Assembly: GCF_013185065.1 (NCBI RefSeq) | Contig: NZ_JAAVTO010000008.1 | Span: 1-64,000 of the forward strand | Direction of reading: 5' to 3' | DNA length: 64,000 nt | From: Adlercreutzia sp. ZJ473 | GTDB taxonomy: Bacteria > Actinomycetota > Coriobacteriia > Coriobacteriales > Eggerthellaceae | Shown here: positions 46,428-53,221 of the stretch, one piece after another | Layout of the letters: the number at the start of each line of letters is the position of its first letter | Numbering within the stretch: position 1 is the stretch's first letter | Translations under genes and position numbers: made by a program | The notes under the pieces: generated by a model | Databases searched by the model: none | Told to the model about the DNA's origin: nothing | Seen by the model: the letters and a program-made list of their open reading frames with translations, nothing else

Positions 46428-49400
46428 TCACATCTTCCCGCCAAAAGTCTTCTCAACAAACTCCGCGAGCTTGCCTTCCTTGGCCAGGGCGGCCGAGTCG
46501 GCACACACGAAATTGCTGTCAAGCCACTGCCCGTGCTCTCCGTCATATCCCAAGATGAAGTGCGTCGCAATCTGGTAGATGATCTCTGTTGGGGCTATGC
46601 CGAACACCTGCTTGGAAAGAATATGCTTAAGCCGCTCGTCATCGTCGGGGAACAACTCGCGCATCCTCTCGGAGTTGTATAGCCGCGTAACGATCTCGGT
46701 AATGTACAGCCCTGACTTCATGTACAGGTCGGCAAAGGTATGCGTAGGGTCGTCGAAGCAGCCGGGATTCTCCTGCTCGAACAGGTCCACCATCTGCTTC
46801 ACCACGCGCTTCGGCGTATAGATCTGGTTCGTCTTCTGCGGCGGCACGTAGTCGAAAATGTCTTCGGTCTGGCCCTCGTCGAAGTAGTCAGCCAACCTCG
46901 TGCGCAGCGCAATGAACTCCTGCACGGAATCATCGAAAACCACCGGGTCGAACAGGTTGCCGTCGAAGTGCTTGATTTCGCCGTCTTCCTCGTAGGGGCC
47001 GCCGTCGCGCAGAAAGCGAAACTCGTCAACCGTGATGGACGTGACCCCTTTGAACACATCGGGTGGGATGATGATGTCGAAGTTCGCAAGCGTAGTGCCC
47101 TTATCGCCGTAAGCCATAAGGAAGCTGGGGATCGTGCGGGAAAACCCGCGCAGATGATCGCGTATGCCCGTCTCTATGTCGCGCTTGGCAGCCTCCTTCT
47201 TGGCGGTCTCAACCTCGCGCACGATGGTTGCACCCGCACTCTCCACCAGCACGGGCCTGCTCGCCTCCAACCGTCTGCGCAGCCTGTCTGCGACCTCACG
47301 CATACGTTCGTCATGCTCGGCGTTTATGGCGTCCATTGCCTCGTCAGTCTCGGCCTCGGCAAGAGCATCCGTACGCGATTTCTCGATGATACTGCGCTGG
47401 ATCTTGTAGTCGCCGACCTCACGGTTGAGCGTCATGTCGGCATCTGCCTTTATCTTGCGTTCGATGCGCTTCTGCTGGGCGCTCTTGAGCTCGCTTCTGT
47501 AGCTCTGCTTTGCTGCTTCCACCAAAGGCTCGGTAACGTCATGTACGAATGCCTTGGAAAGCCCGCGTATCAGCTCGTCCTCGTCGGTGCTGCGCTCGTC
47601 CTCCATCTTAATCACCCAATATTCGATGGAACCCTGCAGCTCCTGTTCCACCTTGCCGTAGACCTTATCTCCGAACAAATCGCTCGCAAGCCCGATGGCA
47701 ACCTCCTGCGGAATGTTCACGTCTCCGTTCTCGTCAAGTGAAAGCTCGTCGGCGGTTTCAGGTGTAATGTCCAGATTGTTGTTGGGTGCCTTGCAAGGCT
47801 CGAAGTTCTGTATGAGCTCCACCACCGCCGCAGGCGCACGAAATACGTTCGATATGTTCTGGAACAGAAAATCGCTCATGAAGCCGCGCCGCACCACCTC
47901 GGTGCTCCGTATCTTGCGCGGCACCGAAAGCACCTGCGCAGCATCAAGCTCCACCATCTGCCCGTCTTCGTCCTCGCCAATGACGGGGAAGAAGTTCAGC
48001 AGTTCCTTGATGTGCGCCTTTCGCGTGTCCAAATCGCCGCGCGCGCCGGAGGTATCCGAATACAGGTCATTGGCGAACTGTTCGAAGATGGTCAGCGTGC
48101 GGGCTGGATCGAAGTCGAACACATAAGCGTTCTCCTTGCGCAAGTACTTGCCGTTATCGTAGAACAAACACGGGTTCTGCGCGCGGAAAGCCGCCTGCAT
48201 GTAAAGAGCGGGGCTCTTCATGTTGGAAAGCATCAGCACGGCTGTCCACTCGGGAATTGTGACACCCGTGGTCAGCTGTCCGACCGAAAGAGTGATCGTC
48301 TTCTCGTGCGTGGCTATAGCCGACCGCACTTTGTCGAAGCTCTTGGCTCGCTCGTCATCGTTGTCGATCTTGCCATCTCCCGCAGCGAGCACAATCTCGT
48401 ACTCGCCGAATACGGGGTGCTTGCGCAGCTTCTTCGCCAAGGCGCGCGCCGAATCAACGAAGTTCAACATCCACAGCGTGTGTTTCAACTCACTTCTCAG
48501 CTCCGGCGTACTGAAGGGAAACTTCAGCTGGGCGGTCAAAGCCTCCAGGAAGCGGTCAACGTCATCGTTGTGGATGAAATTGCCCGCCGCGGTGGTGGCG
48601 AAGAACTCGTTCAGGTCGAAGGCGTACTCGACCGACTTCCCGTCGATGTCCGCCCCGACGGCGACCTTCTCCTCCATGATGTCGCTCATCTTGTAGGTGA
48701 ACATGTTGAGGCGAGGCAGGTTTGCGTAGGGGTTTGGCAGCTCGGCATCATCAGGCCACGCCTCTTTCGCCTTCTGCTCGTCGGCGTATGTCCAGTTATA
48801 GATGGCATTCTGAGGGAACTTGTCGTTGGCGAGCGCCTTGAAGGGTGTGCCCGAAAGGTGCAGCGTGAACTTGCGGTCGATATGGTCAAAGGCAACGTCC
48901 GTCAGATACGTGTCAACGCCCTCATGCGCCTCGTCGATGATCAACACATCCCATCCGCCGTGAATCTCGGTCAGCCACTTGTACTTGTCGTAGTCGCCAC
49001 CGAAATAGAGGGATCCTTTAAGGTCTTGCAGGCTCACGAAGGCGATAAACTTGTTACAAGAGTTTCGATCATTGCGACGCATGGCCATGAACTCCTGCTG
49101 CGTCATCACGTGCGGCTTCTTCGCCAGAGAGGTAGCCTCGCTGATGAAGCAGTACCCGCTCTGTTCGCCGAGGAAGCGCACGTAATCCTCATACCAGCTG
49201 TTGGCGATCGCGGGCCGGTTGGTAACGATCAGCACGGTCTTGGCATCCATCTGCTTGCAAAGGTCGTAGGCGGTAAGCGTCTTGCCGAACCTTGGCTTAG
49301 CGTTCCAAAGGAACTCAGCGCGCTCGTGCAGACGCGAGTAATCAAGCGCTTCCGCAACGGCTTGCTTTTGCTCGGCGCGCAATTGGTAGGGCACAGCCTC

Positions 49401-49769
49401 CGGTAGCGGTATCTCGCCGCGCTTTATGCGGAAGTCAATGAAGCGCCCATGGGATTCCTTACCGCTGACGCAGAACCACTCGGTTCCAGGCTTGTCCTTG
49501 TATCCCAATTTGCGAAGGTAAGCGTGGAAGTCATGATCTGTGAATGTGTCACCCGTGCCATCTTCGTAAATGGCGTTGCCTTGCCATTCCTTATGCCAAG
49601 ATATATCAGCCGTGTGGGTCTGCTGCTTGATGCGAGTATCGACGTCTTGTTCGGTGTAGCCGATCTTCGTCCAGCCGTCGTGTGCCGCTATCTCGGGCGT
49701 GGTGTAGGCGTATATCTGCGGGATCGCCCGCGATGTACTTTTTATGAGACCGGAAACGTCATACGTCAT
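46428..49769 (-). CDS. GIY-YIG / DEAH helicase / partial methylase fusion (restriction subunit)
   Basis: This 1113-residue fusion protein has a T5orf172-like GIY-YIG domain at residues 15-110 (IPQIYAYTTPEI..., KIGYTEQDVDTRIKQQ). The superfamily-2 helicase core has motif I NAKPRFGKT (157-164), the DEAH box IIDEAH (277-282) and LSGTPF (305-310). Motif VI is LYMQAAFRAQNP. A charged helical middle follows at about 680-880. The last 130 residues resemble the N-terminal part of N6-adenine methylases (NQIYTPKRVVKQMVDLFEQENPG) but end before any NPPY. It looks like the cleavage/translocation subunit of the adjacent methylase. It overlaps the YhcG-like gene by 4 bases. GC is lower than in the core genes. 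Confidence 0.8.
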   Translation of the reverse strand: MTYDVSGLIKSTSRAIPQIYAYTTPEIAAHDGWTKIGYTEQDVDTRIKQQTHTADISWHKEWQGNAIYEDGTGDTFTDHDFHAYLRKLGYKDKPGTEWFCVSGKESHGRFIDFRIKRGEIPLPEAVPYQLRAEQKQAVAEALDYSRLHERAEFLWNAKPRFGKTLTAYDLCKQMDAKTVLIVTNRPAIANSWYEDYVRFLGEQSGYCFISEATSLAKKPHVMTQQEFMAMRRNDRNSCNKFIAFVSLQDLKGSLYFGGDYDKYKWLTEIHGGWDVLIIDEAHEGVDTYLTDVAFDHIDRKFTLHLSGTPFKALANDKFPQNAIYNWTYADEQKAKEAWPDDAELPNPYANLPRLNMFTYKMSDIMEEKVAVGADIDGKSVEYAFDLNEFFATTAAGNFIHNDDVDRFLEALTAQLKFPFSTPELRSELKHTLWMLNFVDSARALAKKLRKHPVFGEYEIVLAAGDGKIDNDDERAKSFDKVRSAIATHEKTITLSVGQLTTGVTIPEWTAVLMLSNMKSPALYMQAAFRAQNPCLFYDNGKYLRKENAYVFDFDPARTLTIFEQFANDLYSDTSGARGDLDTRKAHIKELLNFFPVIGEDEDGQMVELDAAQVLSVPRKIRSTEVVRRGFMSDFLFQNISNVFRAPAAVVELIQNFEPCKAPNNNLDITPETADELSLDENGDVNIPQEVAIGLASDLFGDKVYGKVEQELQGSIEYWVIKMEDERSTDEDELIRGLSKAFVHDVTEPLVEAAKQSYRSELKSAQQKRIERKIKADADMTLNREVGDYKIQRSIIEKSRTDALAEAETDEAMDAINAEHDERMREVADRLRRRLEASRPVLVESAGATIVREVETAKKEAAKRDIETGIRDHLRGFSRTIPSFLMAYGDKGTTLANFDIIIPPDVFKGVTSITVDEFRFLRDGGPYEEDGEIKHFDGNLFDPVVFDDSVQEFIALRTRLADYFDEGQTEDIFDYVPPQKTNQIYTPKRVVKQMVDLFEQENPGCFDDPTHTFADLYMKSGLYITEIVTRLYNSERMRELFPDDDERLKHILSKQVFGIAPTEIIYQIATHFILGYDGEHGQWLDSNFVCADSAALAKEGKLAEFVEKTFGGKM

Positions 49770-50836
49770 TCGTCCTGCTGCCTTTCTTCGAACCTACGGC
49801 GTTCTTCCTGTATGTACGCCTCTAGCTCTTCGGGCTTCGGGATTGTCGTCTCGTATTTGGAGGCGAAGATGTTCTTGTCATCTGCCAATAGGGAGTATCG
49901 CGCTACTGTTTCGTTTTTCTCCGAACAAAGCACAATGCCTATCGTGGGATTATCATTCGACCCTCGCTGAAATTTGTTATACAGACGGACGTAGGTATCC
50001 ATCTGCCCTATGTCTTGATGAGTGAGTTTGCCAGTCTTGAGATCGATCAGAACGAAGCAGTTCAACAGATAGTTGTAGAACACAAGATCGATGTAGAAAT
50101 GGTCGCCGTCAAGGTCGATGTGCTTTTGGCGGGCAACAAACGCGAAGCCGCGTCCCAATTCCAACAGGAATTCCTGCAAATTACCGATGAGTGCCTGCTC
50201 GAGCTCGCTTTCGCGAAATTGAGCATCTTGATTTATGCCAAGGAACTCCAGCACGTAAGGGTCACGGATGATGTCTTCCGGGCGCTTCGGGGGTTCCTTT
50301 TCGAAGACCTCCGCTATAACTTCCGGCCGTTTGCTCTCTTGCGTTGCTAAAAGCCGTTCGTAATAGAAGCTGTTGATCTGACGTTCAAGCTGACGTGTTG
50401 ACCAATTAGAGTCGACACATTCATTCATGTACCACAGTCGCTTGTTCGCATCTTTGACTTTTATAAGCTGGCGATAATGCGTCCAGCTCAATTGTGGACG
50501 CAGCGCGTCGAGAATCGGAAAAGCAAGGTAGAAGTTACGCATATGCCACAAATTCGTCGGATCGAAGCCTTTTCCGTAGTCACGAGTAAGGCGAGCGGAA
50601 AGCTCCTTTACAAGCTCTCGTCCGTACGTAGACCGCTCTTCCCCGCCCTGAGCCTCAACTATGCTTTTGCCAACTTCCCAGTAAGCCTTCACCATTTCAA
50701 AGTTGACAGCATGGTAGGTTCGGGCGCGCGCCTCTTCAAGAATGCCGCGAACTTGTGAATAGAGCCCGTCGAGCTCAGCATGTTCCAAGGCTTTTCGCTC
50801 CGACAACGAAGAGCCATGTTTCTCTGCGGGCTTCAT
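49766..50836 (-). CDS. DUF1016/YhcG-family PD-(D/E)XK nuclease
   Basis: The 356-residue protein has the DUF1016 N-terminal domain at about 18-160: NFEMVKAYWEVGKSIVEAQGG and then YGKGFDPTNLWHMRNFYLAFP. A C-terminal nuclease domain with the core FYIDLVFYN then VLIDLKTGKL lies at about 240-285 (D and D-x-K). The family is common in accessory DNA and is linked to restriction systems, but its exact reaction is unproven. It is sandwiched between the methylase (0-base gap) and the helicase fusion (4-base overlap). This argues for one functional complex. Confidence 0.88.
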   Translation of the reverse strand: MKPAEKHGSSLSERKALEHAELDGLYSQVRGILEEARARTYHAVNFEMVKAYWEVGKSIVEAQGGEERSTYGRELVKELSARLTRDYGKGFDPTNLWHMRNFYLAFPILDALRPQLSWTHYRQLIKVKDANKRLWYMNECVDSNWSTRQLERQINSFYYERLLATQESKRPEVIAEVFEKEPPKRPEDIIRDPYVLEFLGINQDAQFRESELEQALIGNLQEFLLELGRGFAFVARQKHIDLDGDHFYIDLVFYNYLLNCFVLIDLKTGKLTHQDIGQMDTYVRLYNKFQRGSNDNPTIGIVLCSEKNETVARYSLLADDKNIFASKYETTIPKPEELEAYIQEERRRFEERQQDE

Positions 50837-52765
50837 CTACGACATCTCCTTGACGTGGGTCTCGATGAACTTGATCTCTTCATCGGAGAGACCGTATTTC
50901 TTATAGAGCTGCTGGTCGCTATAAATATGATCGTAGGGTTGCTCCGGAACGAACGCGTATACCTTTCGCGTGGCATGCTGGGCGGCTTTGCGCAACGAGA
51001 CAAGAAAACGGAAGAATCGCGTTCGAATATAGCTTGCGAGGCTTTCCGCCTCCTCCCGGGCATCAAAAACACCAGCTATTACATACGTCTCTGTACAAGC
51101 CGTCCCGGGCGCCACAACCTTCGGTCTCGAAAGGAACATCTTGTCTACTGATGCGCTAGTGCCCGATACGGCATTCATGAAAACTTTCCACTTATCTATA
51201 TGCTCTTGCCCGAGCGGTATATCAGAACGCTCAACATAGCCGATTCGTTGGGATTCGTACAACTTGACAGGATCGCGAATGCCCTCAGGCGTCTCTGCGC
51301 CATGGAAATTGGTTTGTAACCCAAAAGGCTTGCGTGGCGATACCCTTTCACTCAACGAAGGTTCACCTAAAGCAACTACCTTTCGCACTATAGGGACCGC
51401 CTCGTTTCGTCTAATGAGCACGTCGAATTCATCCAGGTCGCGAGTCGCCGATGGCCCTGAGGGCTTTCCTCCCTCCATAGTTTGAATCCTGCAGGGACCT
51501 TCATACTGGCTGTCCCAGAGGAAGAAAGAGACTCCACCGCGAATCTTAACGTTAGGAAAGGGTTCGTAAAGTCGGGGAAAGTCGACGATGTCCCTTACAT
51601 GATGCTCGGATAGCATTTTCGCGCGAAATTCGTCAAGCCCCTTTCCCCCAGAAAACCAACGGGATGGGGTAACCAACTCCACTCGGTCACTTACTTTCAT
51701 CGCCTCTTCGGCGAACGAATGATATGTAGGAGTAGCAGATGCCTCATAACCGCCATCCATTTCCTGATAAGGCGGGTTACCAATTACGCCGTAGAACATC
51801 TTCATGCCAGCCGCCTTCCTTGTCTTCGTCGAAACGTACGTCTGCTGCTTCTTCGCCCGCCAGTCATAGATCACGCAAAACTGCGCCTGTGCGTCTTTCT
51901 CTTCTTCCAGGAAATCAAATACGCTCATCTGAAACTGATCTCCGACAGGCTTGTCACTAGGCACCGTGCCTCTAAGCCCATCCATCTGCCAAATATTCCA
52001 GCTTATTATCTTGGCAGCCCGCAAGGCTTCTTTCTCGCTTGGGAGCTTGCCCCAAGCATGCTGCAGCGCTTCAGCGAACGCCTGAAGCACGTTGATGCGG
52101 GCTATCAGCAGGTTGTCTCCTTGGTACTCGTATCCATAGGTGGCTTCAAACGCGCGATACGCCCATTTCAGCCACTCGTCATAGTCGGTCGCATTCTCCG
52201 TTACAATGCGCAACTTGCGATCCAAAAAACCTACTCTGTCCACCACGGCTATGGCTTCGCCCGTCAGCATGTCATAGCGAGTGGTTATGAATGGCGCTTC
52301 TCCGCAGGTGATCTCAAGGCGTCGCTGATCAACGAAGTCCTTCCAGGTGCCTGGCGCGTTATCGAAACTGATGCTATTGGCGCTAACCCGCCAGCAGCGG
52401 CCTTCGCATGTACTGAAAACGCCCTCGCGGCCGAACCAGTCATCGTCCATGTATCCGTTCATCTGGTTAACCAGCCAAGCGGGCGTGAACACCTCCGCGT
52501 GCGTCTTGGTGCGCTGGCTTTGCTTTTCCAAGGCCTTGGCAATGCGAGGCTTGATAACGCCACTGTTCGTGCCGCTGATTTTGGGAATGGTTATCTCGTT
52601 GTGACTTAAGTATTGCTCGCCTAAGGCTTCGTATTCATCGTCTGCCCAAATGATGTTCTTGCCAGTTGTGCGGTCGATCAGGAGGGTTTTTAGCACACTC
52701 GCTGGGTACATCGCCTCGATGCTCTCAACGAATCCTATGTTGCCAATAGGCGTATTCTGCTCCAT
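50837..52765 (-). CDS. Eco57I-type N6-adenine DNA methyltransferase
   Basis: The 642-residue protein carries N6-adenine methylase motifs in the gamma order. Motif X is VFTPAWLVNQMN (about 92-103). A motif I-like ITCGEAPF follows near residue 153, and motif IV NPPY is at 330-333. A target-recognition-like C-terminal half ends with YDHIYSDQQLYKKYGLS. It would modify host DNA to protect it from the linked helicase/nuclease. It is the first gene of the three-gene operon. No clear Shine-Dalgarno precedes its ATG. Confidence 0.87.
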   Translation of the reverse strand: MEQNTPIGNIGFVESIEAMYPASVLKTLLIDRTTGKNIIWADDEYEALGEQYLSHNEITIPKISGTNSGVIKPRIAKALEKQSQRTKTHAEVFTPAWLVNQMNGYMDDDWFGREGVFSTCEGRCWRVSANSISFDNAPGTWKDFVDQRRLEITCGEAPFITTRYDMLTGEAIAVVDRVGFLDRKLRIVTENATDYDEWLKWAYRAFEATYGYEYQGDNLLIARINVLQAFAEALQHAWGKLPSEKEALRAAKIISWNIWQMDGLRGTVPSDKPVGDQFQMSVFDFLEEEKDAQAQFCVIYDWRAKKQQTYVSTKTRKAAGMKMFYGVIGNPPYQEMDGGYEASATPTYHSFAEEAMKVSDRVELVTPSRWFSGGKGLDEFRAKMLSEHHVRDIVDFPRLYEPFPNVKIRGGVSFFLWDSQYEGPCRIQTMEGGKPSGPSATRDLDEFDVLIRRNEAVPIVRKVVALGEPSLSERVSPRKPFGLQTNFHGAETPEGIRDPVKLYESQRIGYVERSDIPLGQEHIDKWKVFMNAVSGTSASVDKMFLSRPKVVAPGTACTETYVIAGVFDAREEAESLASYIRTRFFRFLVSLRKAAQHATRKVYAFVPEQPYDHIYSDQQLYKKYGLSDEEIKFIETHVKEMS

Positions 52766-53146: not shown

Positions 53147-53221
53147 TGGAGCCGGTGACAGGAATCGAACCCGCAACCCACTGATTACAAATCAGTTGCT
53201 CTACCGTTGAGCCACACCGGC
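53147..53221 (-). tRNA. tRNA-Thr (anticodon TGT)
   Basis: The acceptor GCCGGTG pairs with CACCGGC, the loop TTTGTAA gives anticodon TGT, and CCA is encoded. Everything from the anticodon loop onward is duplicated, inverted, at 57772-57873, as expected of an integrase attachment site. Confidence 0.96.

Follow-up and report, generated by a model that had tools for sequence, protein, structure and literature searches.

What kind of system is encoded by three tightly packed genes in a 64,000-nucleotide stretch of Adlercreutzia sp. ZJ473 (contig NZ_JAAVTO010000008.1), which we refer to at its full length as the window? The operon, called at window positions 46428-52765 on the minus strand, encodes MT, a gamma-class N6-methyladenine (m6A) DNA methylase of 642 amino acids (aa; 50837-52765); YhcG, a DUF1016 nuclease of the PD-(D/E)XK type of 356 aa, embedded as a passenger (49766-50836); and HEL, a protein of 1113 aa (46428-49769) in which a GIY-YIG (T5orf172) nuclease domain, a superfamily 2 (SF2) helicase, a helical coupler and a partial methylase follow one another. 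A preliminary description of this DNA had named the families of the three open reading frames (ORFs), which their coordinates and Pfam matches confirm, and had presented a restriction-like operon outside the standard type I, type III and single-chain type ISP layouts, which domain and layout tests bore out. It had missed the partial methylase domain that ends HEL and the composition of MT from two modules that are often separate genes. We think it probable that these genes form a mobile restriction-modification system that depends on ATP, resembles type ISP and acts as one complex, with YhcG as an accessory.

MT is predicted by its AlphaFold model (pLDDT 87, pTM 0.86) to have a complete methylase fold, and the best fold matches of the model are complete m6A methylases with target-recognition domains (TRDs): CamA, BrxX/PglX, MmeI, TaqI and LlaBIII. 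The protein matches Eco57I in Pfam (5e-17) and two PADLOC profiles side by side, PDLC03390 at residues 17-312 and PDLC03375 at 324-641, and its motifs run in the order X-I-II-III-IV with NPPY as motif IV. Module N (residues about 1-314; 51824-52765, minus strand), delimited by conservation and by its occurrence as a separate ORF in split loci, carries motif X (T94-P95), motif I (LEITCGEAP, 150-158), the motif II acid E213 and motif III (D262), and ends just before motif IV. Module C (residues about 319-642; 50840-51811, minus strand), delimited by sequence comparisons of loci, holds the catalytic NPPY at 51767-51778 and a target-recognition region at about residues 426-610. In many relatives N is a free-standing gene, and the boundary between N and C in these split loci again falls just before motif IV. 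Read-through of an in-frame stop, considered for many of these methylase genes, was rejected; the sequences show two ordinary genes in tandem, in which a new ATG with a ribosome-binding site follows the stop.

The core pair recurs widely and its parts are connected in several ways. We fetched 80 of 526 MT relatives found in GTDB genomes, and in most of these HEL comes straight after MT, among them loci of Bacillota, Pseudomonadota, Bacteroidota and other phyla. Overall, MT and HEL occur together in more than 100 loci from many phyla, and of 118 helicase loci scored (a few counted twice) 113 have the two genes side by side. Four modules, N, C, Hh (the GIY-YIG nuclease and helicase) and Hc (the partial methylase of HEL), recur with permuted gene boundaries. 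With fusions written as hyphens and gene boundaries as slashes, the window's own layout, N-C/Hh-Hc, occurs at 61 loci (52 full and 9 at contig ends), N/C/Hh-Hc at 30, N/Hc-C/Hh at 24, N/Hh-Hc-C at 4 and N/Hh-Hc/C at 2, besides rarer or broken forms, in a tally that counts a few loci twice, as fetched by two tools. The same modules occur joined in some loci and as single genes in others, which argues that they belong to one assembly and that the proteins form one complex. The N/Hh-Hc-C form, with a single Hh-Hc-C chain and a separate N, is found on plasmids of lactic-acid bacteria and in L141/L142.

A distant branch, with a helicase about 35% identical, shows the same parts in another arrangement. 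Its loci have Hc and C joined into what looks like a complete methylase, a helicase without Hc, and N as a stand-alone protein (about 220-245 aa) that has the canonical motifs EPACGxGNFL, YGVDI and GDAL and no motif IV. A separate HsdS between methylase and helicase in this distant family was considered and rejected, the ORF maps giving instead a helicase and an Hc-C methylase, with the N half as a gene of its own.

Comparison of closely related loci identifies C as an exchangeable cassette. In the 14 pairs whose HEL proteins share 90% identity or more, a set in which some members recur and one pair is a single locus taken twice, median identity is 95% in N, 64% in the motif IV region and 39% in the TRD. 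Segment by segment, identity is mostly above 85% up to the N/C border, drops through C and recovers at the last 30 residues of C or in HEL. At the DNA level, L131 and L132 run from 99% through 51-66% back to 99% identity with sharp borders at C, and the same pattern appears in L029/L005, L040/L026 and window/L102, operons about 95-99% identical elsewhere falling to about 45-65% across C. Rapid drift of the TRD alone was rejected as the cause, as it would not give such sharp borders. Across 1953 pairs the identity of HEL correlates with that of N (rho 0.64 and 0.41) and not with that of C (-0.05 to 0.13), and between the window and Adlercreutzia sp. ZJ141 identity is 90% for N, 92% for HEL, 92% for YhcG and 39% for C. 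HEL remains constant while C changes, and the nuclease side must therefore read its targets through C, since otherwise each swap would leave the host unprotected; restriction must thus take its target from the C half of the methylase, as in type I and type ISP enzymes. One further locus (L022:5923-10536) carries tandem MT genes, two complete and one truncated at a contig end, with N 86-91% and C 47% identical, and looks in sequence like a specificity array.

What does HEL contribute? Its Pfam matches are ResIII (5.3e-15) and T5orf172 (1.3e-4). The GIY-YIG/T5orf172 nuclease domain (residues 17-104; 49458-49721, minus strand), placed by Pfam and conservation, has Y20, Y22, K35, G37, R46, D78, H82 and E97 as invariant residues, and the SF2 helicase or translocase (residues 125-640; 47850-49397, minus strand) has the motifs PRFGKT, SGTPF and QAAFRAQ as well as a DEAH box, with Walker A (PRFGKT) and DEAH intact. 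In the HEL model (pLDDT 82, pTM 0.71) a helical region at residues 688-877 is followed by methylase strands beta1-3 only. These belong to module Hc (residues 960-1113; 46431-46892, minus strand), a second methylase N half defined by motif conservation and the model, which stops before motif IV and carries NQIYTP as motif X, DLYMKSG as motif I, FGIAPTE as motif II with its acid lost, and D1091 as motif III. The best match of the model in the PDB by Foldseek is the type ISP enzyme LlaBIII (4xqk; E 6.9e-12 over 1067 columns), followed by SNF2 motors, SauUSI and HsdR, all with low full-length TM-scores, so that these matches show domain order and fold class and not close similarity.

The system is thus best set beside the type ISP enzymes LlaGI and LlaBIII, which are single chains with an Mrr nuclease (PMC3874165, PMC4666363). 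As modelled, HEL follows their order of nuclease, SF2 translocase, coupler and gamma methylase N half, and one TRD would likewise be common to methylation and cutting. Unlike them, the system has a GIY-YIG nuclease in place of the N-terminal Mrr domain and comprises two proteins, not one polypeptide: its chain breaks off between motifs III and IV of the methylase, a second protein supplies the C half, and there is an extra N half. The type ISP class is further marked by ATP-driven translocation and by cleavage between sites that face head to head. The resemblance to type I systems (HsdR, HsdM, HsdS) lies in the multi-subunit organization, in an exchangeable specificity component common to methylation and restriction, and in the embedding of YhcG and other accessory genes; the swapped cassette here differs in carrying both the TRD and the catalytic motif IV, the nuclease is GIY-YIG, and none of the operon's three proteins has an HsdS or HsdM match in Pfam. 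Type III systems share a helicase matching ResIII and nothing else, as they pair a beta-class Mod (DPPY) with a Res ending in PD-(D/E)XK, in contrast to the NPPY, the X-I-II-III-IV order and the GIY-YIG domain found here. Type IIG enzymes join nuclease, methylase and TRD in one chain without an ATPase motor, unlike a system whose SF2 helicase has an intact Walker A and DEAH box.

Based on these observations, we propose that the proteins would act as a single complex. N, as the SAM-binding (S-adenosylmethionine-binding) half, and C, with the catalytic NPPY and target recognition, would make up MT and methylate adenine in the target sites of the host. HEL would dock on the recognition module of C, probably via Hc, and at unmethylated sites its helicase would translocate DNA, driven by ATP, and its GIY-YIG nuclease would cut, which would amount to defence. 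The loss of the motif II acid in Hc, together with KSG in its motif I, leads us to take N as the true SAM-binding half. With C common to both activities, a cassette swap would shift the specificity of methylation and cutting together, safely, and populations swap C repeatedly. The nuclease gene YhcG would be an accessory that entered between C and HEL, dispensable for the core and most likely providing a separate or back-up anti-phage activity.

Several points weigh against this proposal. The usual metal-binding Glu position of GIY-YIG nucleases is apparently Asp (D78) throughout the family, and the cleavage chemistry is assumed. The relation of HEL to type ISP is one of fold and domain order, as its sequence profile returns helicase-level matches only in the PDB (the level of UvrB and XPD). 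Swaps of C could also be tolerable if restriction is inactive in some loci. The three methylase halves, N, Hc and C, leave one half without a partner in this scheme. A bolder version of the mechanism, which we think unlikely, would take C as one catalytic half for two competing halves of the SAM-binding type, N for methylation and the degenerate Hc, tied to the motor, for restriction, a switch of partner toggling the complex between modifying and destroying DNA. Such partner-switching, if true, would give restriction-modification a new principle of control and would account for the retention of both N and Hc in nearly every locus, whatever the fusions.

Is YhcG, then, part of this system? As a protein it has an intact active site, matching YhcG_C (2.4e-58) and DUF1016_N (3.8e-48) over the gathering score and the PADLOC candidate PDC-S02 over its full length, with the PD-(D/E)XK residues present as D250...D265-x-K267 (D250-K267 at about 50036-50089). 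The preliminary description had treated it as one of three genes of a candidate undescribed defence system. The MT-HEL pair recurs widely, as shown above, and YhcG stands between the two genes at 2 of about 150 loci with a helicase module, those of the window and of ZJ141 (L002/L102); on these counts it was rejected as a conserved partner. Among 140 genomes searched in the window's family, 11 have a full-length HEL, and in all nine checked besides the window and ZJ141 MT immediately precedes HEL without YhcG, as it does in a wider set of the class.

The gene is variably present, an outcome that the preliminary description had itself named as refuting its reading. In a sister species (G029 C2, L103:8700-10260), at the same site between an L,D-transpeptidase gene and tRNA-Thr/pyrE, YhcG is intact and stands alone, MT being reduced to its last codons and HEL to two short fragments by two separate deletions. 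This copy is 86% identical to that of the window, with a ratio of nonsynonymous to synonymous substitution rates (dN/dS) of about 0.1, and its dS of 0.97 to the window's gene, against 0.13 for a neighbouring gene, indicates that simple inheritance together with the flanks does not account for the island allele. The flanking L,D-transpeptidase gene, looked for in a third congener (G030) as a check for an empty site, was not found. Elsewhere YhcG is solitary or belongs to a type I operon, with HsdM and HsdS as its typical neighbours on either side, contexts unlike the GIY-YIG/helicase operon seen here; of 20 family copies sampled, one is in HsdM-YhcG-HsdS-HsdR order and the other 19 are without a detectable type I neighbour. 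Other genes occupy the borders of C at other loci (L048, L052, L024, L032, L077, L194, L200, L202, L213), namely PIN with a putative antitoxin, MNT with HEPN, T5orf172, a 145-aa gene assigned to no family, HNH, HicAB, KilA-N, DUF4238 and one further gene of no known kind. From these neighbourhoods we take the C-border slot to be a landing place with YhcG as one occupant, and YhcG to be a recent passenger, the trio being a local rearrangement.

ZJ141, which holds YhcG inside the GIY-YIG system, also has an HsdM-YhcG-HsdS-HsdR operon (L262, G139 C23). The window's own genome has a second YhcG, 59% identical (G000:C34:16297-17283), with no restriction genes detected nearby.

A passenger may still have a function tied to its host. 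In the EcoprrI operon the embedded prrC provides a precedent (PMC3874165), and YhcG could be a guard of the same kind, kept silent by the restriction complex until a phage that blocks restriction sets it free. Its ORF lies within a restriction operon as this requires, it also occurs in type I operons, flanked by HsdM and HsdS, and the slot beside C and HEL holds toxin-antitoxin and nuclease genes (HicAB, PIN, MNT-HEPN, HNH, T5orf172). The two operons are alike in containing a toxic or nuclease gene; they differ in that PrrC is a tRNA anticodon nuclease, YhcG is predicted to cut DNA, and YhcG outlasts the loss of its host system. A nuclease silenced by the complex should vanish with the complex, yet G029 retains an intact YhcG by itself and many genomes have the gene in solitary form, which argues against a strict need for the complex and makes the guard somewhat unlikely.

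The other explanations fare less well. MT and HEL could work independently, the one as a methylase and the other as a nuclease-helicase with its own targeting, in one operon of type II or type III-like organization, as the model of MT as a methylase complete by itself would allow. No TRD can be recognised in HEL, however, and its final part is a methylase half which relatives carry joined to C. With C swapped and HEL constant, a target of HEL's own would uncouple protection from cutting; we regard this reading as quite unlikely. That YhcG is instead an integral third subunit, and the trio a so far undescribed defence system of three genes and two nucleases, agrees with the tight coupling of the genes (0-base gap and 4-base overlap, confirmed as first reported), with an order conserved in two species of different genera at different sites, and with purifying selection on YhcG (dN/dS 0.06-0.11). 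Its absence from other loci carrying the MT-HEL pair, its retention alone in G029, the unrelated genes in the same slot elsewhere and the solitary state of most family relatives make this very unlikely. A decaying relic without function is highly improbable, for although both large genes are deleted in the sister species and HEL stubs occur in other genomes, the three frames are open with conserved motifs and window-ZJ141 dN/dS is 0.06-0.07 for HEL, YhcG and N.

How the operon reached its present site can be addressed in part. Its guanine-plus-cytosine (GC) content is 50-57% against 62-71% in the flanks and tRNA-Thr (53147-53221) lies 382 bases upstream of the MT start codon, so the acquisition suggested earlier on these two grounds holds to the extent that the operon looks acquired. 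A search of the other island border for a direct repeat of the tRNA-Thr end gave none, and integration into tRNA-Thr marked by repeats was rejected, with integrases looked for in the ORF list only. The single promoter and own terminator first attributed to the operon did not survive comparison with shuffled sequence, promoter-like sites numbering 3 against 3.9 expected and terminator-like sites 7 against 7.6, neither above chance. The best hairpin (52959-52930, minus strand) sits upstream of the operon, and no hairpin terminator was found downstream of HEL, the last gene.

Is the system new? We found no paper describing this operon or assembly in the open-access literature; as a trio it is not conserved, and the proteins of its core pair are catalogued piecewise by PADLOC. 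The profiles REase_MTase_IIG (PDLC03626) and MTase_II (PDLC03390 and PDLC03375) match the single-chain form, the N half and the C half under type II or IIG labels, though the proteins carry an SF2 helicase, and the assembly is not described by those profiles. The strongest novelty is the split methylase with its exchangeable C cassette, unseen by the preliminary description: a natural adenine methylase cut between motifs III and IV, whose catalytic-plus-recognition half circulates and whose edges gather accessory defence and toxin genes, YhcG among them. From sequence, we judge the core to be a widespread, apparently unstudied variant of restriction-modification, split, ISP-like and with a GIY-YIG nuclease, in which YhcG is a hitchhiker. 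If this is right, a common restriction system of gut bacteria and plasmids has been overlooked, its parts filed under separate type II profiles; it would offer a direct route to studying joint change of methylation and cutting specificity, and would show how multi-gene systems could give rise to single-chain type ISP enzymes or be formed when these come apart.

Three further observations concern the core genes elsewhere. A sequence labelled "Bacteriophage sp." from human faeces (L129, MT835780.1) carries an N/C/Hh/Hc version, with a HEL 59% identical and split into two pieces. Short C-terminal HEL stubs in genomes without a full copy (G106:C5:34218, G319:C13:834835, G337:C34:110782, G524:C5:515128) are traces of past loss. 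In L106, L135, L137 and L112 overlapping frames or an in-frame stop interrupt the methylase within its recognition region, HEL being intact, and phase variation, decay and a further natural split are the candidate explanations.

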